IMG/VR virus record: IMGVR_UViG_3300048031_000012
Span: 1 to 24,855 of that record
Strand: one strand, 5' to 3'
Length of the DNA stretch: 24,855 nt
DNA from: a virus
In this document: positions 272 to 22,600 of the stretch, in pieces
Layout of the letters: each line of letters opens with the position of its first letter
How positions within the stretch are numbered: position 1 is the stretch's first letter
Program-made: the position numbers and the translations under genes
The notes under the pieces: model-generated
The model's database searches: none
Seen by the model: the letters and a program-made list of their open reading frames with translations, nothing else
What the model was told of the DNA's origin: nothing

Positions 272-373
272 AATGTTCCGTTGTAATGTTCCTAATGTTC
301 CACAAGAAGTTCCACAATGTGCAAAAATAAGTCATTGATTTTATTATAATGTTCCTAATGTTCCTAATGTTCC
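272..373 (+). repeat. Iterons, left arm: six copies of AATGTTCC
   Basis: AATGTTCC occurs at 272-279, 285-292, 294-301, 348-355, 357-364 and 366-373. The last three are perfect 9-bp tandem repeats (TAATGTTCC). All six face the same way; the right arm carries six copies in the opposite orientation. A TATAAT-like sequence abuts the first copy (269-274), and another abuts the inner cluster on the opposite strand. Confidence 0.9.
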
Positions 374-462
374 ATGAAAAAAAATATAGCACCCCATACG
401 CGACCCCCCTTATTATGCGATACCAACTACCCACACAATTTGCCTACACCCCAAAAATTAAC
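374..462. other. A/T- and C-rich centre of the iteron array (candidate origin core)
   Basis: This 89-nt segment is the symmetry centre between the opposed iteron arms. It opens with a run of A, continues with C-rich stretches, and has no iterons. In iteron-type origins the unwinding element lies next to such arrays; that this is an origin is inference only. Confidence 0.35.
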
Positions 463-582
463 GGAACATTTGGAACATTGGAACATTCCAATGATTTCAA
501 GCACTTACAGACACACCAAATGGAACATTATAAAACCCGATTGGAACATTGTAATCTTATCAATAACTTAGCACGGAACATT
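463..582 (-). repeat. Iterons, right arm: six copies of GGAACATT
   Basis: GGAACATT, the reverse complement of the left-arm unit, occurs at 463-470, 472-479, 480-487, 522-529, 543-550 and 575-582. The inner trio (463-487) is complementary to the inner trio of the left arm (348-373), so the two could pair over about 25 bp as a cruciform or RNA stem. Confidence 0.9.
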
Positions 583-677: not shown

Positions 678-706
678 TTGACATTACATGGTTATCATGT
701 TATATT
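678..706 (+). promoter_or_regulatory. Early sigma70-type promoter with operator-like palindrome
   Basis: A consensus -35 TTGACA (678-683) is separated by 17 bp from -10 TATATT (701-706). Transcription would start near 713 and read rightward into the long early operon. The spacer contains ACATG-GTTAT-CATGT (686-700), an inverted repeat exactly between the boxes, where a repressor would block RNA polymerase. The hexamers and spacing are seen directly. Repression is inference. No phage RNA polymerase gene lies in the window, consistent with use of host polymerase. Confidence 0.8.
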
Positions 707-1538: not shown

Positions 1539-2456
1539 ATGAATAACGTACACCAACTAGCCACCGCGAGTAGTGACCCACTACCAACAGATGCACCGAC
1601 ACTTGGCTCATCTGCAATGCTCGTAGAAGTCAACATCTCTACATGGGCAGGTCGAAAGAAAGACAAGCGGGCTTCCGCTGATGTCGCTTCCGCGAACCAC
1701 GCCGACAAAGAGGTTGCTAACGTGATCAAGAAGTTACTCGCTAACTCTGACACACTCAAAGCAATACAGACACACGTCACCGCGGCGCGCAACATGCACT
1801 CGAATATGACGATGCCTTGGTCTAACTCTGGGCTACGTCTGTTACCTACAGCGCAATACTTCAACTACAGCGAAGCTATGTCTCAAATGCAGAATGAGTT
1901 TGACGCACTAAAGACTAAGTTTCTAAACTCGTACAACGACGAAGTAATAAACGTACAGCTAAAGCTCGGCTCGTTGTTCTCGCGTGACGACTATCCCACG
2001 ATTGAAACACTCGACAGTAAGTTTGCTTTCCGTATGAACTATATGCCATTGCCAGATGTCGGTGACTTCCGTGTCGATGTGGGCAACGAAGCACTACTCG
2101 AAATCAAGCAGAAGTATGAGGACTTCTATTCCAAACAATACAATACAGCTATGAATGACGTGTGGACACGTTTGCACAAGGCACTGACAAATATGTCTGA
2201 GCGCCTAGACTACAGCAGTAAAGAGGATAAGAAAGTATTTCGTGATACACTCGTTGGTAATGTCACTGACATGATAGAACTACTACGTGTGTGTAACGTG
2301 ACGAAGTCTGTCCAGATGTCCGACATGGCTAACAAACTCGAAGATGCAATGTCTGGTGTTACAGCCGACGCATTGCGTGAGGACGATACGTTCCGCGCCG
2401 AAACCAAAGCGGCAGTCGATGCCGTTATGAAATCACTACCATCATTAGATATATAA
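1539..2456 (+). CDS. Conserved phage protein of a MoxR-VWA module (DUF3150-like)
   Basis: This 305-residue, mainly helical protein starts at ATG 1539 behind AAAGGAGG (1526-1533), the strongest ribosome-binding site here. After a disordered N-terminus that contains a 15-bp palindrome (1570-1584), the segments VNISTWAGRKKDKRAS and MPWSNSGLRLLPTAQYFNY match my recollection of a protein family found beside AAA+ and VWA genes in phages and mobile elements. The DUF3150 label is tentative. No catalytic motif is apparent. Its place before the MoxR-like ATPase (2721) and the VWA protein (4306) suggests it is the third member of that module, perhaps a substrate or adaptor; this is inference from context. 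Confidence 0.75.
   Translation: MNNVHQLATASSDPLPTDAPTLGSSAMLVEVNISTWAGRKKDKRASADVASANHADKEVANVIKKLLANSDTLKAIQTHVTAARNMHSNMTMPWSNSGLRLLPTAQYFNYSEAMSQMQNEFDALKTKFLNSYNDEVINVQLKLGSLFSRDDYPTIETLDSKFAFRMNYMPLPDVGDFRVDVGNEALLEIKQKYEDFYSKQYNTAMNDVWTRLHKALTNMSERLDYSSKEDKKVFRDTLVGNVTDMIELLRVCNVTKSVQMSDMANKLEDAMSGVTADALREDDTFRAETKAAVDAVMKSLPSLDI
1570..1584 (+). repeat. 15-bp palindrome GTAGTG-ACC-CACTAC (site 5), inside a gene
   Basis: A perfect family member within codons 11-16 of the 1539-2456 gene, read as SSDPL in a disordered N-terminal tail. Placement in a tolerant segment suggests the DNA or RNA motif, not the peptide, is what is maintained. Confidence 0.85.
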
Positions 2457-2468
2457 GAAAGGTTTACC

Positions 2469-2672
2469 ATGCACATACACTTTGTAGGTTTTCGCACAGA
2501 TGCAGAATACTCTGCCGCAGTACGTGTGTGGGGAAAGCCTGACTTTATACATATGTGGCACGACCACAGAATGTACGGTGATATCGGGGACAGCGATACT
2601 GTTGTCCTCGCTTCAAAAGGTACGGATAATCCGCACCCTAAATATTCGTGGCAAGATCACGAGCTATGGTAG
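2469..2672 (+). CDS. Hypothetical 67-aa protein
   Basis: The start ATG at 2469 follows AAGAAAGG (2455-2462). The protein is rich in His, Trp and Asp (MHIHFVGFRTDAEYSAAV, IHMWHDHRMYGDI) and could be a small alpha/beta fold; no known domain is visible. Its last codon is TGG and its stop TAG is part of the 15-bp palindrome at 2669-2683, the first of three genes in the window whose stop codon is supplied by this repeat. It lies between two members of the MoxR-VWA module and may be an accessory to it, which is only a positional guess. Confidence 0.65.
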   Translation: MHIHFVGFRTDAEYSAAVRVWGKPDFIHMWHDHRMYGDIGDSDTVVLASKGTDNPHPKYSWQDHELW

Positions 2673-2683
2673 TGGCTCACTAC
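2669..2683 (+). repeat. 15-bp palindrome GTAGTG-GCT-CACTAC (site 6), carries a stop codon
   Basis: A perfect family member. The TAG at 2670-2672 ends the preceding gene. The rest lies in the 48-nt gap before the MoxR-like ATPase, whose G-poor leader resembles the one before the first gene. Confidence 0.9.
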
Positions 2684-2720
2684 TTAACAACACTAAACTT
2701 AAACAAGAAAGAAGAACAAC

Positions 2721-3833
2721 ATGAATAATCAAGCACAATCAATGTACGCACTAAGCCCAGATCAAGTTGCTGATGCAATCAAGAGCCAACTACATGTGGA
2801 TGAAGAAGATAAGAACACACTTATCGTTGAGGGTCACATGGGTAGCGGCAAATCTTCGATACTGAAAACACTGGACGCGCAGTTACCGAAACACAAAGCA
2901 ATCTATTTTGATTGCACAACCAAGGCAGATGCAGGTGACTTGATGATGCCCAAGTTCAAAGACCTAGAAGGTAACGACTATGTGACCTTTGCCACTAACG
3001 AGGAGCTAGGTGTACACATCAAAGATCAACCACTCATTATTATGATAGACGAGGTGGGTAAGAACAAGAGCTTACAGAACCCACTCAATCGTTTGTTCCA
3101 AGAGCGTATGATTGGTATGAACAAACTACATCCTGACACGTTAGTGTTTGCTACAACTAATATTGGTGCAGAAGGTGTCGGTGATATGTTCATGCCACAC
3201 ACATGTAACCGCGTTACGTTTGTACGTATGCGTAAACCTAACAATACGGAATGGATCGAATGGGGTATCAACAACGACATAGACCACAGCCTACTTGGTT
3301 GGTGTAAGGACAATCCACAGTTGTTTGCATCGTTTGAAGACGTGAAAGACCCAGATGAAAACCCGTGGATATTTCACCCAAAAGCTTTTAGACGTTCGTT
3401 CTTTACGCCGCGCTCGGGTCACAAAGCATCTAACTGGCTAAAACAACGCCACCTCCTTGATGATCAAACACTCACAGCCGCATTGATGGGTACGATTGGT
3501 GATCGTGCGGCAATGGACTTGATGGCGTTTGTGACACTAGCTGATCAGCTACCTACCTTGCAGTCTATCAAAGACAATCCAAAGAGTGCCAAAGTACCTG
3601 ACAGCGCCGCCGCTATATGTATGGTTGTGTATAGAACTCTGTCTGCGTTGGACAAAGACTGGCTCAACAGCTGGATGGATTACTTGCCACGCCTCGATAC
3701 CGAAGCACAAGCTATGTTCGCTAATGGTGTACGCGCACCGAAGTATTCAAAGCAGTCAATGGTTATGACTAACAAGAAGTTCACCGAGTGGGCTATGAAG
3801 AACAACCACCTATACACAGCAGACAAGGTATAA
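2721..3833 (+). CDS. MoxR/CobS-like AAA+ ATPase
   Basis: This 370-residue ATPase has a Walker A motif GHMGSGKS (residues 38-45), Walker B LIIMIDE (105-111) and a sensor-1 asparagine in ATTN (N147). The layout and spacing are those of the MoxR branch, which includes CobS-like proteins in marine phages. MoxR ATPases act as chaperone-like hexamers that remodel a partner carrying a VWA domain; the partner here is very probably the 4306-5568 protein. True cobaltochelatase function is unlikely, since no CobN-type subunit is seen and the family name often comes only from ATPase similarity. The C-terminal ~170 residues are less conserved and helical. The ribosome-binding site is a weak purine stretch (AAGAAAGAAGAAC). 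Confidence 0.88.
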   Translation: MNNQAQSMYALSPDQVADAIKSQLHVDEEDKNTLIVEGHMGSGKSSILKTLDAQLPKHKAIYFDCTTKADAGDLMMPKFKDLEGNDYVTFATNEELGVHIKDQPLIIMIDEVGKNKSLQNPLNRLFQERMIGMNKLHPDTLVFATTNIGAEGVGDMFMPHTCNRVTFVRMRKPNNTEWIEWGINNDIDHSLLGWCKDNPQLFASFEDVKDPDENPWIFHPKAFRRSFFTPRSGHKASNWLKQRHLLDDQTLTAALMGTIGDRAAMDLMAFVTLADQLPTLQSIKDNPKSAKVPDSAAAICMVVYRTLSALDKDWLNSWMDYLPRLDTEAQAMFANGVRAPKYSKQSMVMTNKKFTEWAMKNNHLYTADKV

Positions 3834-3835
3834 TT

Positions 3836-4003
3836 ATGGAAAAGAGTTATGACGTAACTGTCGAAGGGCTAGTATCACGAGTTATCTGTGTACTTGCACA
3901 CACCGAAGCCGAAGCAGTCGCAGAGGCAAAGAAAGAGTTCACTTCATTAGTGGGCGCATTAAACGCTGTCGTTGTTACAGCAGAGGAGAGATATAATGGG
4001 TAA
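3836..4003 (+). CDS. Hypothetical 55-aa protein
   Basis: The ATG at 3836 comes three bases after the ATPase stop, so translation is probably coupled. The sequence begins MEKSYDVTVEGLVSRVICV and continues with an Ala/Glu-rich helix (HTEAEAVAEAKKEF). This beta-then-helix pattern is common in tiny phage proteins of unknown role. It overlaps the next gene by 8 nt. It sits inside the MoxR-VWA module, but nothing in the sequence shows what it does. Confidence 0.65.
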   Translation: MEKSYDVTVEGLVSRVICVLAHTEAEAVAEAKKEFTSLVGALNAVVVTAEERYNG

Positions 4004-4304
4004 ACGATGGACAGATAAAGAGGACGGTATCCTCGAAACACTACGTGATGGGGGCATGACCTTTGAGGAAGTTGCTTCCATAATGGGACGCACAAAGCAA
4101 GCAGTACAGCAACGTGCATCTGTATTGAAACGTAACGAACCTACGTTTCGTGAAGTTGTGGATACAGCTTTTGAGAAGCACGGTATCGAGTTCGGTGAAC
4201 CTGATAAGCCGTTGCCGAGAATACAATACATGCTCAGTCAAATGGAACAAGACATCAAGCCGAAGCCGCAGTGGTGGAAAGCTATGATGTGGTGGAGGAA
4301 ATAA
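3996..4304 (+). CDS. SANT/Myb- or GcrA-like DNA-binding protein
   Basis: This 102-residue protein starts at ATG 3996 with GAGGAGAG just upstream. Residues 3-45 read as a three-helix DNA-binding domain: RWTDKEDGILETLRDGG, then FEEVASIMGRTKQAVQQRAS, with the spaced aromatic and leucine residues of Myb/SANT or GcrA-type helix-turn-helix domains. A C-terminal tail rich in Trp and Lys (QWWKAMMWWRK) follows. It is one candidate reader for the 15-bp palindromes or the iterons. The fold assignment is from pattern recognition; target and role are not known. Confidence 0.7.
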   Translation: MGKRWTDKEDGILETLRDGGMTFEEVASIMGRTKQAVQQRASVLKRNEPTFREVVDTAFEKHGIEFGEPDKPLPRIQYMLSQMEQDIKPKPQWWKAMMWWRK

Positions 4305-4305
4305 A

Positions 4306-5568
4306 ATGCTAGCAATCAAACAACTAACTGAGGAGCAACGACTAACAAAAGCCGTTGTATCTATTATGAGTAGCCCGAAGTATGTCGCACTCGCAGGGGT
4401 GCTAATGATCGGGGAGCGTTCTGTAGTGGACGACCCGAGCGTACCGACGGCATGTACCAATGGACGTGACGAGTTCTACGGACGTGAGTTTGTAAGTAAG
4501 CTCAACGATGCCGAGCTTAGATTTCTGGTGTTGCACGAAGTGTATCACAAGTTGTTCCGTCACTTGACCACATGGAAACATCTATACTTGCAAGACGCAC
4601 ATCTTGCGAACGTAGCGTGTGACTACGTGATCAACCTAAAGATTGTAGATGATAACTACCAAGATGGGTTTGCTACTATGACAGGCGAACTTTCAAAAGG
4701 TTGCTATGATCGTCAGTACGTTGGTATGGATACCGCGCAGGTGTACAACTTGCTACGTAAAGATCAACCGCAAGGCGGCGGCCAAGGTGGTGGCGTTGGT
4801 AATCCCGAAGATGGTGATGGTACGCCCGAAGATGGTAGTGGCTCACTACCGAACGGACAAGAACCATTCGATGTACACGATTGGGACGGTGCGCAAGAAA
4901 TGACCGCCGATGAACAACGTGATCTTGCCAGAGAGATTGACGAGGCAGTACGTCAAGGTGCATTGGTTGCAGGGAAGATGGGCAGTGGTGGTGATCGTGA
5001 CCTAGAAGCATTGCTAGAACCACAAGTCGATTGGCGTGAAGTGTTGCGTGAGTTTGTGCAGGCTACATGTACAGGCAGTGATTACTCTACATGGCGTAAA
5101 CCAAAACGTAGGTTGCTTGGTCAAGGTATATACATGCCTAGCACGTACAGCGAACAGGTCGGGGAACTGGTGGTTGCAATCGACACGTCTGGGTCTATCC
5201 AACAGCCCGAAGTCACCGCGTTTCTTTCCGAGGTCAAAGCAATATGCGATATGGTACACCCAGATAAAGTACGTCTGTTGTATTGGGATACAAAGGTATG
5301 TGGTGATGAAACGTATGACACGCATGAACTAGAAACACTTATACAATCTACCAAGATCAAAGGCGGTGGCGGTACAGATGTAGACTGTGTGACTGAGTAC
5401 ATTCGTGAAGAAAGCATCAACGCGCAAGCGGCTATCATCCTAACAGATGGAGAACTATACAGTGGTTGGGGTCAGTGGACTATGCCTGTGTTGTGGTGCG
5501 TTATCGACAACAAGCACAAAGTGCCAGACGTAGGTAAATGTGTACACATAAAATCGAGGGACATGTAA
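4306..5568 (+). CDS. Putative metallopeptidase with VWA-like domain (DUF2201 family, CobT-like)
   Basis: This 420-residue protein has two domains. The N-terminal half carries the zincin motif HEVYH (residues 77-81) of DUF2201-type putative metallopeptidases. A Gly/Glu/Asp-rich linker (about 155-185) follows. The C-terminal half is VWA-like with MIDAS residues DTSGS (293-297), the Thr in GGGGTD (353-358) and TDGE (380-383). In known systems such proteins partner a MoxR-type ATPase, present at 2721-3833. Zn-dependent proteolysis is therefore possible but unproven. The linker contains a 15-bp palindrome (4835-4849). Its stop codon shares a base with the next start (TAATG). CobT-like is a similarity label only; cobalamin synthesis is not implied. 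Confidence 0.85.
   Translation: MLAIKQLTEEQRLTKAVVSIMSSPKYVALAGVLMIGERSVVDDPSVPTACTNGRDEFYGREFVSKLNDAELRFLVLHEVYHKLFRHLTTWKHLYLQDAHLANVACDYVINLKIVDDNYQDGFATMTGELSKGCYDRQYVGMDTAQVYNLLRKDQPQGGGQGGGVGNPEDGDGTPEDGSGSLPNGQEPFDVHDWDGAQEMTADEQRDLAREIDEAVRQGALVAGKMGSGGDRDLEALLEPQVDWREVLREFVQATCTGSDYSTWRKPKRRLLGQGIYMPSTYSEQVGELVVAIDTSGSIQQPEVTAFLSEVKAICDMVHPDKVRLLYWDTKVCGDETYDTHELETLIQSTKIKGGGGTDVDCVTEYIREESINAQAAIILTDGELYSGWGQWTMPVLWCVIDNKHKVPDVGKCVHIKSRDM
4835..4849 (+). repeat. 15-bp palindrome GTAGTG-GCT-CACTAC (site 7), inside a gene
   Basis: A perfect family member located in the flexible Gly-rich linker of the metallopeptidase-VWA gene, where it encodes SGSL. As at site 5, it falls in a region where protein sequence is least constrained. 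Confidence 0.85.
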
Positions 5569-16584: not shown

Positions 16585-19410
16585 ATGAACAACTTAGACT
16601 TTTTAAAAGGATTACTCAGCGACTCAGGACATTATTGCGTATTTGCCGCTAAAGGTGACGTACGTATACAAAAGTTTTATGATACTATTGAAGACGCAGA
16701 GAGAGCTACACGTAAGTTTATCACAGATGGGCTAAACACGTACTTTGCTTTAAGCACATTTAAAGAACCGACCAAGGATGCGGGTCGTAAAGGTACGAAC
16801 GCACACGAGTTGAAGTCTTTCTTCCTCGACTTGGATTGTGGACCAACATACGAATACCCTACTAAAGAAGCCGCAGTATCCGCAGTGCGTGATTTCTGCA
16901 AGAAACTATCACTCCCTAAACCCTTGATGGTTAACAGTGGACGTGGTGTGCATGTATATTGGCCTCTTACCGAAGCACTTTCGGCGGAGCAGTGGGCTGT
17001 GGAAGCCGACAGATTAAAGCGGTGCTGTTCTGATAACGGGTTACTCGCTGACCCTGCTGTTACTGCTGACGTGGTACGTATCCTACGTATGCCGAACTCA
17101 AAGAACTATAAGGAAGACCCGCCTTTACCAGTAGACTTTCTTGGTGTGTCTATGCCAGAACCTGTTGCGCTTGAAGATTTTACATCCAAGCTAGGCGTCT
17201 TAGCGAAGCCAGTTATCAAGATTGACTTGGGTACTGACGCTCTTTACGAAGCCTACGCCGAGAACAGTGAGAATGTTTTTAAGACAATCATAAAGAAAAC
17301 TGTGCAGGGGAGAGGGTGCGCACAATTAAAATACATCGCCATGAACCAAGCAGAAGTTAGCGAACCTTTGTGGAGAGCCGGTCTATCTATTGCGAAGTTC
17401 TGTAGCGATGGAGCCACAGCCGCAGTAAAAATATCAGAGAAACACCCCGGATACAACGAAGCAGATATGCGCAAGAAGATGGACGAGATAAAAGGGCCAT
17501 ACACCTGTGCGCGTTTCAACGACCTTAACGAAGGCACATGCCAGAACTGCCCTTTATGGAACGAGATTAAATCGCCGATTGTACTGGGTAAGCGTATTCG
17601 GGAATCCGAAGGTGAAGTGGTAGTATCTGCACCTATAGTAAAAGCAGGGGTGAAGAAGTCCGAAGAGTTTGAGATACCAGAATATCCTAATCCTTACTTC
17701 CGTGGAGCGGCGGGTGGCGTATTCTTACGCAGTAGTAACTCCGATGGGGATATAGAAGAAGAGGTTATATACCATCACGACATTTATATTACTCGACGTC
17801 TGCATGACATCGAACTGGGCGAGACGCTAGTGTTCCGCCTACATTTACCAAAAGACGGTGTACGACAGTTCAACGTACCTCTTACGAGTATAACTTCCCG
17901 TGAGGAGTTCCGTAAGTGTATGGCGAAAGAAGGCGTAACTGCATGGGGAAAGGCTTTAGATAAATTAATGGCATACACAACAAAATGGGTAGACGAACTA
18001 CAACGCACAACTGTAGCTGATGAAGCGCATCGACAATTCGGTTGGGTCAGCGACGACATGGAGGCGTTTGTATTAGGTGGCAAGCTAGTTACTGGGACAG
18101 GCGTGGACTTTAATCCACCATCAGCAAAGACTGCGGGTTTGATTGATGCGTTTGAACCTAAAGGAACCCGTGAAAAATGCGTTGAGTTAATGGAGTTCTA
18201 CAACAAGCCGGGTTATGAACTACACCAGTACGTGTTGGGTATTGGTTTCGGCTCACCTCTCATGGCAGTTACAGGTCTAAATAGTATGGCTGTGCATCTT
18301 TATGGTGGGTCAGGTGTAGGTAAGACTACTGCACAAATGGCGGCACTCGGTATATGGGGCAGTCCTGATGAACTGATGAACAAACCAGAGGATACTCACA
18401 ACTCACGTATGAACCGTGGGGAAGTTATGCACAACATACCGCTAGTGTCCGATGAGATGACTAACGTAACAGGTGAGCAGATGTCTGAGTATGTTTACCA
18501 AGTATCCGGCGGTCGACAAAAGAATAGACTATCCGCTAATGGTAACATCGAACGAGCGAGGGGCAAACCTTGGCAACTACTCGCGTTAAGTTCAGGTAAC
18601 ACAAGCGCATGGGAAGTGTTGGGTCGGCACAAAGCAACGCCGAAAGCAGAGATGTACAGGATGTTTGAAATCCATGTGCAGAAGAAGCATTTCCTCAAAG
18701 GACAGAACACAGAGACTACTCACCTGTTTAGCGACTTTAAGAGCAACTACGGGCATATAGGCACAGAGTATATCCAGTGGGTTATCAACAACAAAGCAGA
18801 AGTGCGCCGCACAGTGGAGACTGTACGTGAGCGTCTTGATAAGGCCGCAGGGCTCGGCCCTGAGAATAGGTTTTGGTCTAACGGTAACTCTGTAATTATA
18901 GCAGGGCTTATCATCGCTAAGAAGTTGGGCTTCATAAACTATGATGTCGGTGCTGTGTATAAGTGGGTGGTAGGTGAATTACTTTCTCGTAACAGCTACG
19001 TCAACGATGCGGGCTCGTCTGTTACACAAACACTCAACAACTACTTGTCAGAAAACTACAACAACATGCTGAAGATCGAAAGCACTGAAGACCTTCGTGG
19101 TAAAAACGACAACGGCTTAGATCAACTTGTACCTGTAGGTGCATCACCCCGCGGTCATTTAGTTGCACGTTACGAACCGGACACTAAGCTATTGTTCTTA
19201 CGATTGAAGCCGTTCCGAGAGTGGTGCGTAGATCAGCAGATAAACTACCAAGGTGTAGTGGACGAATTAAAAAATAAGTTAGGCGCAAAACGAACGAAGA
19301 AACGACTTACTAAAGGTACTGACTTCAACCTACCGCCGGATTGGGTGCTAGAGATGGAGTTTGCAGAGATGGAGCAAGAAAGCGATGGAGCAGAAGGTAT
19401 TGAAGGTTGA
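16585..19410 (+). CDS. AEP primase-helicase fusion (PrimPol plus DUF927-like helicase)
   Basis: A 941-residue replication protein. The N-terminal ~200 residues are an archaeo-eukaryotic-type primase: FFLDLDCG (D82, D84), SGRGVHVYW (118-126, H123) and VRILRMPNSKNYK. A Cys cluster (C308, C319, C322 with nearby residues) may bind zinc. From about residue 370 a DUF927-like region leads into a helicase ATPase with Walker A GGSGVGKT (574-581), an acidic Walker B pair D623/E624 in VSDEMTN and SSGNTSAW as the likely sensor. Known relatives synthesise primers and unwind the fork. ATG 16585 has GGAG at 16573-16576, immediately after the hairpin. The C-terminus overlaps the next small gene by 26 nt. Confidence 0.9.
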   Translation: MNNLDFLKGLLSDSGHYCVFAAKGDVRIQKFYDTIEDAERATRKFITDGLNTYFALSTFKEPTKDAGRKGTNAHELKSFFLDLDCGPTYEYPTKEAAVSAVRDFCKKLSLPKPLMVNSGRGVHVYWPLTEALSAEQWAVEADRLKRCCSDNGLLADPAVTADVVRILRMPNSKNYKEDPPLPVDFLGVSMPEPVALEDFTSKLGVLAKPVIKIDLGTDALYEAYAENSENVFKTIIKKTVQGRGCAQLKYIAMNQAEVSEPLWRAGLSIAKFCSDGATAAVKISEKHPGYNEADMRKKMDEIKGPYTCARFNDLNEGTCQNCPLWNEIKSPIVLGKRIRESEGEVVVSAPIVKAGVKKSEEFEIPEYPNPYFRGAAGGVFLRSSNSDGDIEEEVIYHHDIYITRRLHDIELGETLVFRLHLPKDGVRQFNVPLTSITSREEFRKCMAKEGVTAWGKALDKLMAYTTKWVDELQRTTVADEAHRQFGWVSDDMEAFVLGGKLVTGTGVDFNPPSAKTAGLIDAFEPKGTREKCVELMEFYNKPGYELHQYVLGIGFGSPLMAVTGLNSMAVHLYGGSGVGKTTAQMAALGIWGSPDELMNKPEDTHNSRMNRGEVMHNIPLVSDEMTNVTGEQMSEYVYQVSGGRQKNRLSANGNIERARGKPWQLLALSSGNTSAWEVLGRHKATPKAEMYRMFEIHVQKKHFLKGQNTETTHLFSDFKSNYGHIGTEYIQWVINNKAEVRRTVETVRERLDKAAGLGPENRFWSNGNSVIIAGLIIAKKLGFINYDVGAVYKWVVGELLSRNSYVNDAGSSVTQTLNNYLSENYNNMLKIESTEDLRGKNDNGLDQLVPVGASPRGHLVARYEPDTKLLFLRLKPFREWCVDQQINYQGVVDELKNKLGAKRTKKRLTKGTDFNLPPDWVLEMEFAEMEQESDGAEGIEG

Positions 19411-19612
19411 CGATCTAAACCCTGATGGGTTACGGATCACTGTTGACTGGGAAGACATGAGTGTGGGGGCATCCATATTTGTGCCTTGTATCAACACTGA
19501 GAAGGGTAAAGAGCAACTAAACAAGGTCGCAAAGCTAAAAGAATGGAAGTTTGATACGCAAACCTGCATAGAAGACGGTAAATTAGGTTTACGTACGTGG
19601 CGTACTGTGTAA
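19385..19612 (+). CDS. Hypothetical 75-aa protein, last early gene
   Basis: The likely start is ATG 19385, 26 nt inside the primase-helicase gene; a TTG at 19361 is less likely. The protein is a small beta/alpha domain (DGLRITVDWEDMSVGASIFVP, then a helix with KGKEQLNKVAKLKEWKF and a C-terminal strand, LGLRTWRTV). Similar short proteins are common in phage replication regions and have no known function. It is the last + strand gene before the terminator at 19664. Confidence 0.7.
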   Translation: MEQKVLKVDDLNPDGLRITVDWEDMSVGASIFVPCINTEKGKEQLNKVAKLKEWKFDTQTCIEDGKLGLRTWRTV

Positions 19613-19663
19613 CAATACTGGTACGACGTTCGCCTGTGAATGTTGTTCTCAACCTGAATACTT

Positions 19664-19689
19664 GCCCCTGCTTCGGCGGGGGCTTTTTT
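19664..19689 (+). terminator. Intrinsic terminator of the early operon
   Basis: GCCCCTGC and GCGGGGGC form an 8-bp stem (one G-T wobble) closed by the very stable C(TTCG)G tetraloop, followed by six T. It sits 51 nt after the last early gene and 2 nt before the end of the convergent late gene, so it stops rightward transcripts from running antisense into that gene. Read leftward, the hairpin lacks a U-tract. Confidence 0.93.
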
Positions 19690-19691
19690 CG

Positions 19692-22600
19692 TTAGAAGCC
19701 TTGGAAGCCTTTGTCGTAGTCTCGAACAATAGACTCCATGAACTCTGTGTATGTCATACCACCCTTCATCTTAGAGGTTGTACGCTCGAAGCTACGTGCG
19801 GATCGCTCTTTAGTATCTCGTGTGATACGAGACTTCTCTGCACCTCTTGGAAGACCTTCATTGTATCGTTTGATAAGACGGTCTGCTTCTTGCACACCTT
19901 CACGATCTCCATTACGCAACGCCATATTACGACGACGTAGTAGTTTTGTCCGTCTGCTACTTACAGCTTCTTCACGACGACGAGCGTTCTTGTTGAACTC
20001 AAGCTGTTGTATGTAAGACTGTGGCGCAAACCCAAGACCCTGCATAATAGCGTTGTACGCATTTATGTCTTCGGTAATTGGATCACCACGACGTGTCGTT
20101 GCGCCTTCTCTGTAGAACCGCCAACCTTTAGAGAAGTTGCGGATAGCCGCAGGCACTGCTGTTTCGGCACCGCGTTTAACTCCCTGCATATCCCCGTCAG
20201 CAAATCCTTGCCATATTTCACCCCCGCCACGTAGGCCACTAAGAGTAATCCCTAGAACCGGACCACCTATCTGCTCTGCGAATGTCCACAGAGGGCTCTG
20301 ATCTTTGTCCACAAGTGGCGGGCGATATAACAAACTGTTGAGCGAGATACGATTAGCTACATCTATGCCAAGTAACTCGTTGGCCGCACCGCCGTATATA
20401 CCTTCGCCAGTAAATTTCCTTAGTGCAGATTCGAAGTCATCCTCGTCGTCATCCCTAAGCATATTATAAATCATGCCGAACGCACCCATCATTGGCATAC
20501 CACCTGCACCTGCCATAACACCTGTAGAGATCAAGAAGTTACGTAGACCTATCCTTGCGAGCTTACGATCCTTAGAAATCTGCTGTGCTTCGGCTTCGGT
20601 GACGCCCATATCTTGCATAATCTTAGCGACGTTTGTAGACCCGATGGATTCATGCCCCAACTTATACATCATGTAGTATTTGGCGATAGCGAAGCGTTTG
20701 AACAAGAATAGTACATTACCTACACCGCTTTGCGCCCATACTGGACGACCCGCCGCCGCTGTTGAACCAAGAGTAAACTCAGTTGTCTCGATAGCTTTCT
20801 GTGCGGCGTCTTTATAATCTTGGTCTGTGAGCTGTTTACCTTCAGCTTGTAGCTTCCGTACTTCAAGTGCGTACGACGCAGTGAGAGTTGTTTCCCTGTT
20901 AAACCGTTCCGCGTGATGGAACATGCCGCTAGTCCACCTGTTTATACCTTCCAACGGGGCATCACGACCTATCTCAAGGCTTTCTTGAGTCATAGACTGA
21001 TTTGCTTGTCCTTGGTCAGCAGCTGTTTCAAACAGAATATCGGCTCGAATCTTTTGCATTTCCGGCGGTAACTGCTCAAACGTATAGTTAAAGGAGGACT
21101 TACCAATAATACCCATTTTAACTTCTTGTTCTATAGGCTTTCCATCAGGGCCAGACACCATGATACCCCGTGTCTTAGGAGCGTTCATAATTAGGCTAGT
21201 AGCTTCCCCATATGCACGGGCAGTATTATTTACACCGTATTCGGCTGAGATGACAGGCATGGCACTCATAGCAACATCGAAGAATGTAATCGCTGCTGAC
21301 GAGAAGTTGAAACCCATCGTCATGTTAAAGCCGACACCGTTAGCCACTTGTGACCATCGAGGTACGTTAGGTTTTTGAGCGAACTTGGCGATCTGATCTA
21401 ATTTACGTGCTATCTCTGCAGTCTCAGGGTTTTTAAGGAATTTGTCTTCTTTGAGCTTGTTGCGGAACTTCTCTATCTCCGCCGCCGCTTGAATCTGCAC
21501 GATCTGACGGTTCAGGTCACGACCTTTTTCTTTCATCATAGTGACAGCGTCGAACTCAGTGTCACCTATTTTGGTTGGAGTGTTGTCACCTATATAACCA
21601 CGTACATCTTTACGTCTGCGGAATCCCTGCATAAACGAACGCTCTGGCATTGCGTCTAGGGCTAGGTCTACGACACTCTGTACTGCCGCATCGTACTGTT
21701 CAGGGTCTTTGAAACTACTTTTGGACATCTCCATAGTCTTTAAGATATCGTAAACAAACGAAGAGCTTGGCACAGAGCTGTAGTTCATAGGTTGATCTGC
21801 ACGAGTATACTCAGGTTTAGTGCCTATAGCAGATACAGATTCGGCAACTTTGAACGCCTTGTCTAGCTGTTTACGGTTCTGGTAATACTCTACAGCAGTT
21901 TGAGGTTGCCCTTCTTCATTGAGGAACGTGTACTGCAGGCGGTGCTTACCTTTACGCATAAGAGGGAAGTACGGTTTAATAATACCGCTTTCCTTCATAA
22001 GAATCTCTGACAACTTCTCAAACGCAGACGCGCGTGTCTTAGGATCGGCGATAGATGCCTCTAAACGAGCGCGTAGGGCTGGAAGAATTTCGTCGTATGT
22101 ATCTTCAAAAAAGTTGCGCATTTGCCTATAGAACTGCTGACCTTCTTTACCCATAGCGTTGTACTGCTTGCGCAGTGCGTCGTAAGCCACCAAATCTTTT
22201 GGGTCAGGGTCTTTCATATTCTTAGCTTTAGTAGTCTTAGCTTCTTCGTGATTTTTGTTAAAGTTCTCTACCCAAGCAGTGCGGGCTTTCTCCGACTTAA
22301 ATTCTTTTACAACAGACTTCTTAGCAATAATATCGTTGTATGCTGCTTTGTAAGAACTGTAGAACGACGGCGGCTTTGATGGGTCTACACGCAGTGCAGT
22401 AGACTTAGGAATTATGTTGTTCATAATCTTAGCAGCAGCTTTATTCTTTCGAGTCCAACTTACATAATTGTTGGTCATAGCGTCGAGCGCGTCATTTCGT
22501 GAGCGCATAGCCCCACTCATCTTACGAATAAGAATGTTTAACTCAGGTGCGTATGGTATTTTCTTTTTAGCAACATCTGCAAGGATACGAGAGTCTAGCG

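Follow-up and report, generated by a model that had tools for sequence, protein, structure and literature searches.

The window, a stretch of viral DNA of 24,855 bases, carries near its left end a conserved array of short iterons arranged in two facing groups. This array is probably the replication origin of the phage, served by the phage's own fusion of an AEP primase with a DUF927 helicase. It is most likely an origin of the SaPI-Rep type in altered form and not a categorically new system, the altered features being presumably IHF-bent arms, a C-tracted centre and a distance of 16 kb between origin and initiator.

Anatomy of the array

Exact AATGTTCC/GGAACATT octamers occur 12 times in the window, all of them inside 272-582 and none elsewhere, against 0.78 expected for the whole window and a maximum of 4 over 100 shuffles. 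The original prediction of twelve 8-bp iterons, six facing six, around an 89-nt centre is thereby borne out (Table 1), as is the spacing of 8-9 bp given for the inner trios (9/9 on the left and 9/8 on the right). The mirror symmetry claimed for the array is perfect in orientation, six + octamers being followed by six − octamers, and roughly true of the inner trios, but it does not extend to the outer spacings, which differ between the arms (counted inward, 0/13/22 on the left and 0/32/53 on the right). The complementarity of the inner trios follows from the repeats facing each other. A degenerate seventh site in the left arm may also be functional. Searches of the window against Rfam and for tRNAs gave no match.

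Table 1. Features of the array and of the genes and signals associated with it (positions in the window)
Feature	Position	Strand	Remarks
Left outer iterons AATGTTCC, starting at 272, 285, 294	272..301	+	Exact matches; +0 +13 +22 kept in close relatives
Degenerate seventh left-hand site AAGAAGTTCC	304..313	+	Near-invariant in an alignment of 15 relatives
IHF-consensus site AATCAATGACTTA	328..340	-	Exact match; 7 bp from iteron at 348
Left inner iteron trio, starting at 348, 357, 366	348..373	+	Exact matches; 9-bp period
Centre, 89 nt	374..462	no strand	C-rich on + strand; conserved GCGACCCCC at 400-408
Right inner iteron trio, starting at 463, 472, 480	463..487	-	Exact matches
IHF-like site TTTCAAGCACTTA	495..507	+	One mismatch; perfect in L014
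Right outer iterons, starting at 522 and 543	522..550	-	Exact matches
IHF-consensus site TATCAATAACTTA	558..570	+	Exact match; 7 bp from iteron core ending at 550
Last right iteron, starting at 575	575..582	-	Exact match
Early sigma-70-type promoter TTGACA-17-TATATT	678..706	+	Conserved in relatives; outside the array, 96 bp to its right
AEP primase-polymerase (residues 1-204) fused to DUF927/SaPI-Rep-type helicase (about 364-931)	16585..19410	+	Profile and fold matches

The centre is a candidate unwinding or priming region. Its AT content of 58%, against 54% in the coding part of the window, is unlike that of a classic AT-rich unwinding element and speaks against an origin; the arms reach 65-69%, and the centre of some relatives up to 70%. 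On the early-sense strand of the centre C is strongly favoured over G in most relatives, and GCGACCCCC is conserved there.

Using the IHF consensus WATCAANNNNTTR, we found two exact matches in the whole window, both within the array (P 0.0015 when the array region is shuffled). The left-arm IHF site is oriented opposite to the right-arm sites, and in the window each sits between the iterons of its own arm. Across relatives, a gap of 7 bp to the iteron core is seen for 51/58 exact and 47/59 one-mismatch IHF-type sites, cases that are not independent events because the relatives share ancestry; the spacing is retained even where the array layout differs. Consensus sites between iteron groups at constant spacing are the arrangement of an IHF-assisted origin, and the sites may be occupied by IHF. 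An exact IHF-type motif also adjoins an iteron in the staphylococcal element PT1028 (L316 2572-2584), by chance or as the site of another binder. The staphylococcal host of PT1028 is not known to have IHF, and the motif by itself is therefore no proof of IHF.

Conservation among relatives

Relatives were gathered through homologues of the downstream DUF3150 protein and a scan for paired octamers, which together yielded more than 100 viral loci, and the array layout is shared by dozens of contigs from related ocean phages. In close relatives the octamers sit at +0 +13 +22 +76 +85 +94 / -191 -200 -208 -250 -271 -303 exactly or nearly so, and L004 has unchanged arms around a centre shortened by 35 bp. 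Distant relatives (DUF3150 34-55% identical) retain the octamer core and the facing orientation with altered spacing; their exact core copies range from 7 to 12, so that a rule of six per hexamer is not established. A set of 61 distinct arrays, each with at least seven cores, includes 49 perfect inward mirrors, and of its 607 sites 593 fit an inward mirror. The median centre of this set is 100 bp, and 39 of the 61 arrays have an inner left spacing of 9. The iteron core is TAATGTTC, and the eighth position of the octamer prefers C and tolerates G or T. A search for near-identical isolated phages found none. The contig G011, with six sites of mixed orientation and no DUF927 gene, is a doubtful bearer of the array.

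The putative initiator

As originally predicted, the phage encodes its own primase-helicase, an AEP/DUF927 fusion of 941 aa with a Pfam DUF927 match at E 1e-23. Its helicase is of the SaPIbov1 Rep/Cch group: the nearest solved relatives by sequence are the SaPIbov1 initiator helicase (8tch, profile E 4e-20) and SCCmec Cch (5dgk, 3e-15). In the predicted fold, a moderate model (mean pLDDT 65), residues 364-933 match 8tch and 5dgk with Z of 18.7 and 20.2, respectively, and residues 1-204 align with the AEP domain of S-2L PrimPol. Binding of iterons by the C-terminal domain of the helicase has been shown for Cch2 and is reported for SaPI Rep (PMC7581432).

Iteron clusters beside other DUF927 helicases

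In seven of eight other DUF927 elements, clusters of 7-11 short iterons lie just downstream of the helicase gene, equalled in 0 of 200 shuffles; the eighth, U10, has a weak cluster only. The iterons are TTTCACCT in Epona, GTAACAA in phiRg507T2_3, GGTAACC in THSA-485A, GGGGAAC in phiAH14b and GAACCAA in P12620-1. MT835606 also has a cluster, but its array is the same as that of phiRg507T2_3, so the two are not independent. Directly downstream of the helicase gene of PT1028, which is SaPI-like, nine AGTTCCC iterons lie in a trio, then a pair at 9-bp spacing and, beyond an AT-rich stretch of about 90 bp, another site that faces this pair. Inner pairs spaced by 9 bp face each other across about 80-100 bp in Epona, phiRg507T2_3 and MT835606; those of THSA-485A and PT1028 are similar, apart from a single 7-bp spacing or degenerate site. 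The Klebsiella phage P12620-1 (L322 5526-5800) has eleven GAACCAA in mixed orientation, a layout unlike that of the other DUF927 elements. The records of Epona, phiRg507T2, THSA-485A and phiAH14b hold no origin annotation for these clusters.

The window array has the same geometry, with short iterons in two groups facing across a centre and an inner spacing of 9 bp. Such facing iterons beside other DUF927 helicases are the strongest evidence that the array in the window is the origin type of this helicase family. The earlier remark that facing 9-bp iterons fall outside the standard designs was only partly right, since several phages and a SaPI-like element have them downstream of a DUF927 helicase. 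In the window the array (272-582) does not lie directly downstream of the helicase gene (16585-19410), and the region 19300-19800, which does, holds no iteron cluster. Because of this separation, we class the array as a positional variant and not as a strict member of the SaPI-Rep/DUF927-type origins.

Genomic setting and alternative readings

In long contigs the array occupies a divergent region between leftward terminase and structural genes and a rightward early operon, which runs from a zinc protein through DUF3150, AAA and VWA proteins to PolA, SNF2 and the primase-helicase. The cumulative GC-skew minimum usually falls 0.4-4 kb from the array, and the maximum close to the primase gene, at the convergent end. 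GC skew had been proposed as a check on the origin, and in most long contigs (G022 is an exception) the pattern is the one expected for a bidirectional origin, though gene direction confounds it.

An operator array through which a phage regulator controls divergent late and early promoters would also be at home between divergent gene blocks, with a conserved sigma-70 promoter close by and small HTH proteins encoded nearby. We nevertheless regard control of early transcription as improbable: the array and the early promoter do not overlap, neither the HTH_17 protein nor the small zinc protein is detectable in the array-bearing G006, G010 and G014, and the same geometry adjoins DUF927 helicases in unrelated phages. 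Moreover, a dispersed palindrome, GTAGTG...CACTAC, makes a better operator candidate.

This 15-bp palindrome, GTAGTGNNNCACTAC, has ten copies over the early region (73, 193, 596, 764, 1570, 2669, 4835, 6460, 8662 and 13380), against 0.06 expected for the searched pattern. The copies flank the array and follow the early promoter, and from sequence the palindrome is a candidate operator or stoperator. Its sixth position switches genome-wide by phage between GTAGTT...AACTAC and GTAGTG...CACTAC, as in G001, L005 and L020 versus the window, G002, G018 and G023. The former dominates 9 to 2 in G001 and 7 to 0 in L020, the latter 10 to 0 in the window and 12 to 0 in G018, and the Pseudomonas phage Rollin has GTAGTA...TACTAC. 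The switch looks like one of repressor-operator specificity. A reading as LexA direct repeats (GTTC spaced 11) was rejected, the spacing here being 9.

Other peculiarities of the region are three copies of a 34-nt repeat of the ACAAAGATGCCAGTTCTCCGAGCAGCTTTGCGAC type to the left of the array (1-34, 89-122 and 208-241), partly kept in relatives, and a conserved early module consisting of DUF3150, AAA ATPase and DUF2201/VWA proteins (1539-5568), which is also present in the cyanophage Pag-Yong1. The AAA ATPase gene (2721-3833) is 99% identical to that of L006 and only 65-67% to those of otherwise close relatives, a pattern that suggests allele exchange. A PDB search with a neighbouring 292-aa protein returned no homologue.

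The terminase genes lie 1-3 kb from the array in full contigs, and cosB of phage lambda likewise pairs repeated sites with an IHF site. The array could thus be imagined as a cosB- or pac-like packaging site made of terminase small-subunit boxes plus IHF. However, the array follows the DUF927 helicase rather than the packaging genes. Of 17 contigs drawn from the searches with the array and the primase, 15 have DUF927, and one of the remaining two is cut inside the primase gene. Four phages with a 44-47% identical large terminase (023Pt_psg01, DSL-LC04, HTVC027P and HTVC023P) have a different primase without DUF927, and the stretches of 34-41 kb read from them contain neither an AATGTTC cluster nor an above-background mirror array. 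G006, G010 and G014, with a 48-50% identical terminase, have both the DUF927 primase and the array. In Rollin, by contrast, no terminase homologue was detected, yet its primase is related (30% identical) and a mirrored array of another iteron lies in the corresponding divergent region. Eight of its nine TATGCAA genome-wide fall in 260-679, as three facing three and two outer sites, and one of its two exact IHF sites falls inside the array. The iteron sequence therefore changes while the mirrored layout persists, which is what the original prediction had proposed to look for in relatives. Rhizobium phage RHph_TM3_14A, whose primase is 25% identical, yielded no array in its divergent region; nor did a Bacillota MAG contig (33% primase) or Rollin-related fragments, whose coverage perhaps stops short of that region. 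The result for RHph_TM3_14A counts against the origin reading, as do the weak cluster of U10 and the 16 kb between the array and the proposed initiator gene. Since the array does not follow the terminase lineage and the ends of long contigs are far from it, we consider a packaging site very unlikely.

Besides a bidirectional-type origin, which is the best supported, a cruciform or RNA stem and a partition centromere had been offered at the outset. The strand does fold far better than shuffles (z about -5.9), but any facing repeats fold so. In the L010 group the right arm has lost one site and changed its spacing with the left arm layout unchanged, and iterons retain sequence and orientation where the pairing register is lost, which makes a long stem or cruciform hard to credit. 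Lambda attP, in which tandem 9-bp arm-type sites are flanked by IHF sites, resembles the array in both respects. Yet no integrase gene adjoins the array, and tyrosine integrase (PF00589) was detected in 0/15 contigs, several of them 55-65 kb long, with a control positive in 14/14 genomes; an attachment site is therefore largely refuted as far as the tyrosine type searched for is concerned, and we give it next to no weight. The iteron array is real and centromeres commonly contain such arrays, but a scan of 20 early proteins turned up no ParA/ParB family and there is no sign of a low-copy plasmid state; a partition centromere is an unsupported reading of negligible likelihood.

Proposed mode of action as an origin

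For the array as a replication origin we propose the following scheme. The primase-helicase would bind the iterons, its C-terminal domain probably making the contact as in SaPI Rep, and two of its oligomers, one per arm, would assemble head-to-head on the facing inner trios. A bend made by host IHF between the two iteron groups of each arm would bring the outer sites back onto the inner trio. The helicases would then open the centre of about 90 bp and part, one moving left into the structural genes and the other right into the early operon. More speculatively, the C-rich early-sense strand of the centre with GCGACCCCC could be the first priming template.

A bolder version makes the array a new class of origin, in which the folding back of two IHF-bent arms loads two hexamers of the AEP-primase/DUF927-helicase, head-to-head, onto duplex DNA, the strand-specific C-tract centre is a built-in priming site, and the facing-iteron part defines the whole DUF927 helicase group, from Gram-positive satellites to marine phages. 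We hold this to be possible but rather unlikely.

Many uncultured aquatic phages form a large group that lacks a mapped replication start; the array offers them a candidate origin open to experiment, and it links their primase-helicase to the initiator helicases of SaPI and SCCmec. Facing 9-bp-spaced iterons together with a DUF927 helicase in the genome would provide a simple rule for locating origins in many phages and satellites, and the variation of the iterons opens comparative access to the DNA-recognition code of the helicase C-terminal domain.

Comparison with known systems

In lambda attP and cosB, repeated protein sites are combined with IHF bends, as proposed for the array; unlike them, the array belongs to a phage without a detected integrase and has no link to the terminase type. 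Phage P4 has octamer iterons at ori1 and crr, and its alpha protein is a primase-helicase fusion acting as initiator. The array and its gene share both traits, but P4 uses two separate regions. Faecalibacterium phage Epona, Ruminococcus phiRg507T2, Thermoanaerobacterium THSA-485A and Pseudomonas phiAH14b have facing groups of 7-8 bp iterons like those of the window, but with other iteron sequences, no exact IHF site and a position directly downstream of the gene.

SaPI origins with a SaPIbov1-type Rep or SCCmec Cch share with the array the short iterons, inner pairs that are spaced by 9 bp and face each other over about 90 bp, and a self-loading helicase of the DUF927 type. The window departs from them in several respects: its helicase is joined to an AEP primase, 16 kb separate the helicase gene from the proposed origin, which adjoins the early operon, the centre has C-tracts and is not AT-rich, and each arm has IHF-consensus sites at fixed spacing. 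In addition, the array belongs to large phages without a detected integrase and not to satellites. Within this family the inner geometry of PT1028 is closely similar to that of the window array, and the core GTTCC is common to both.
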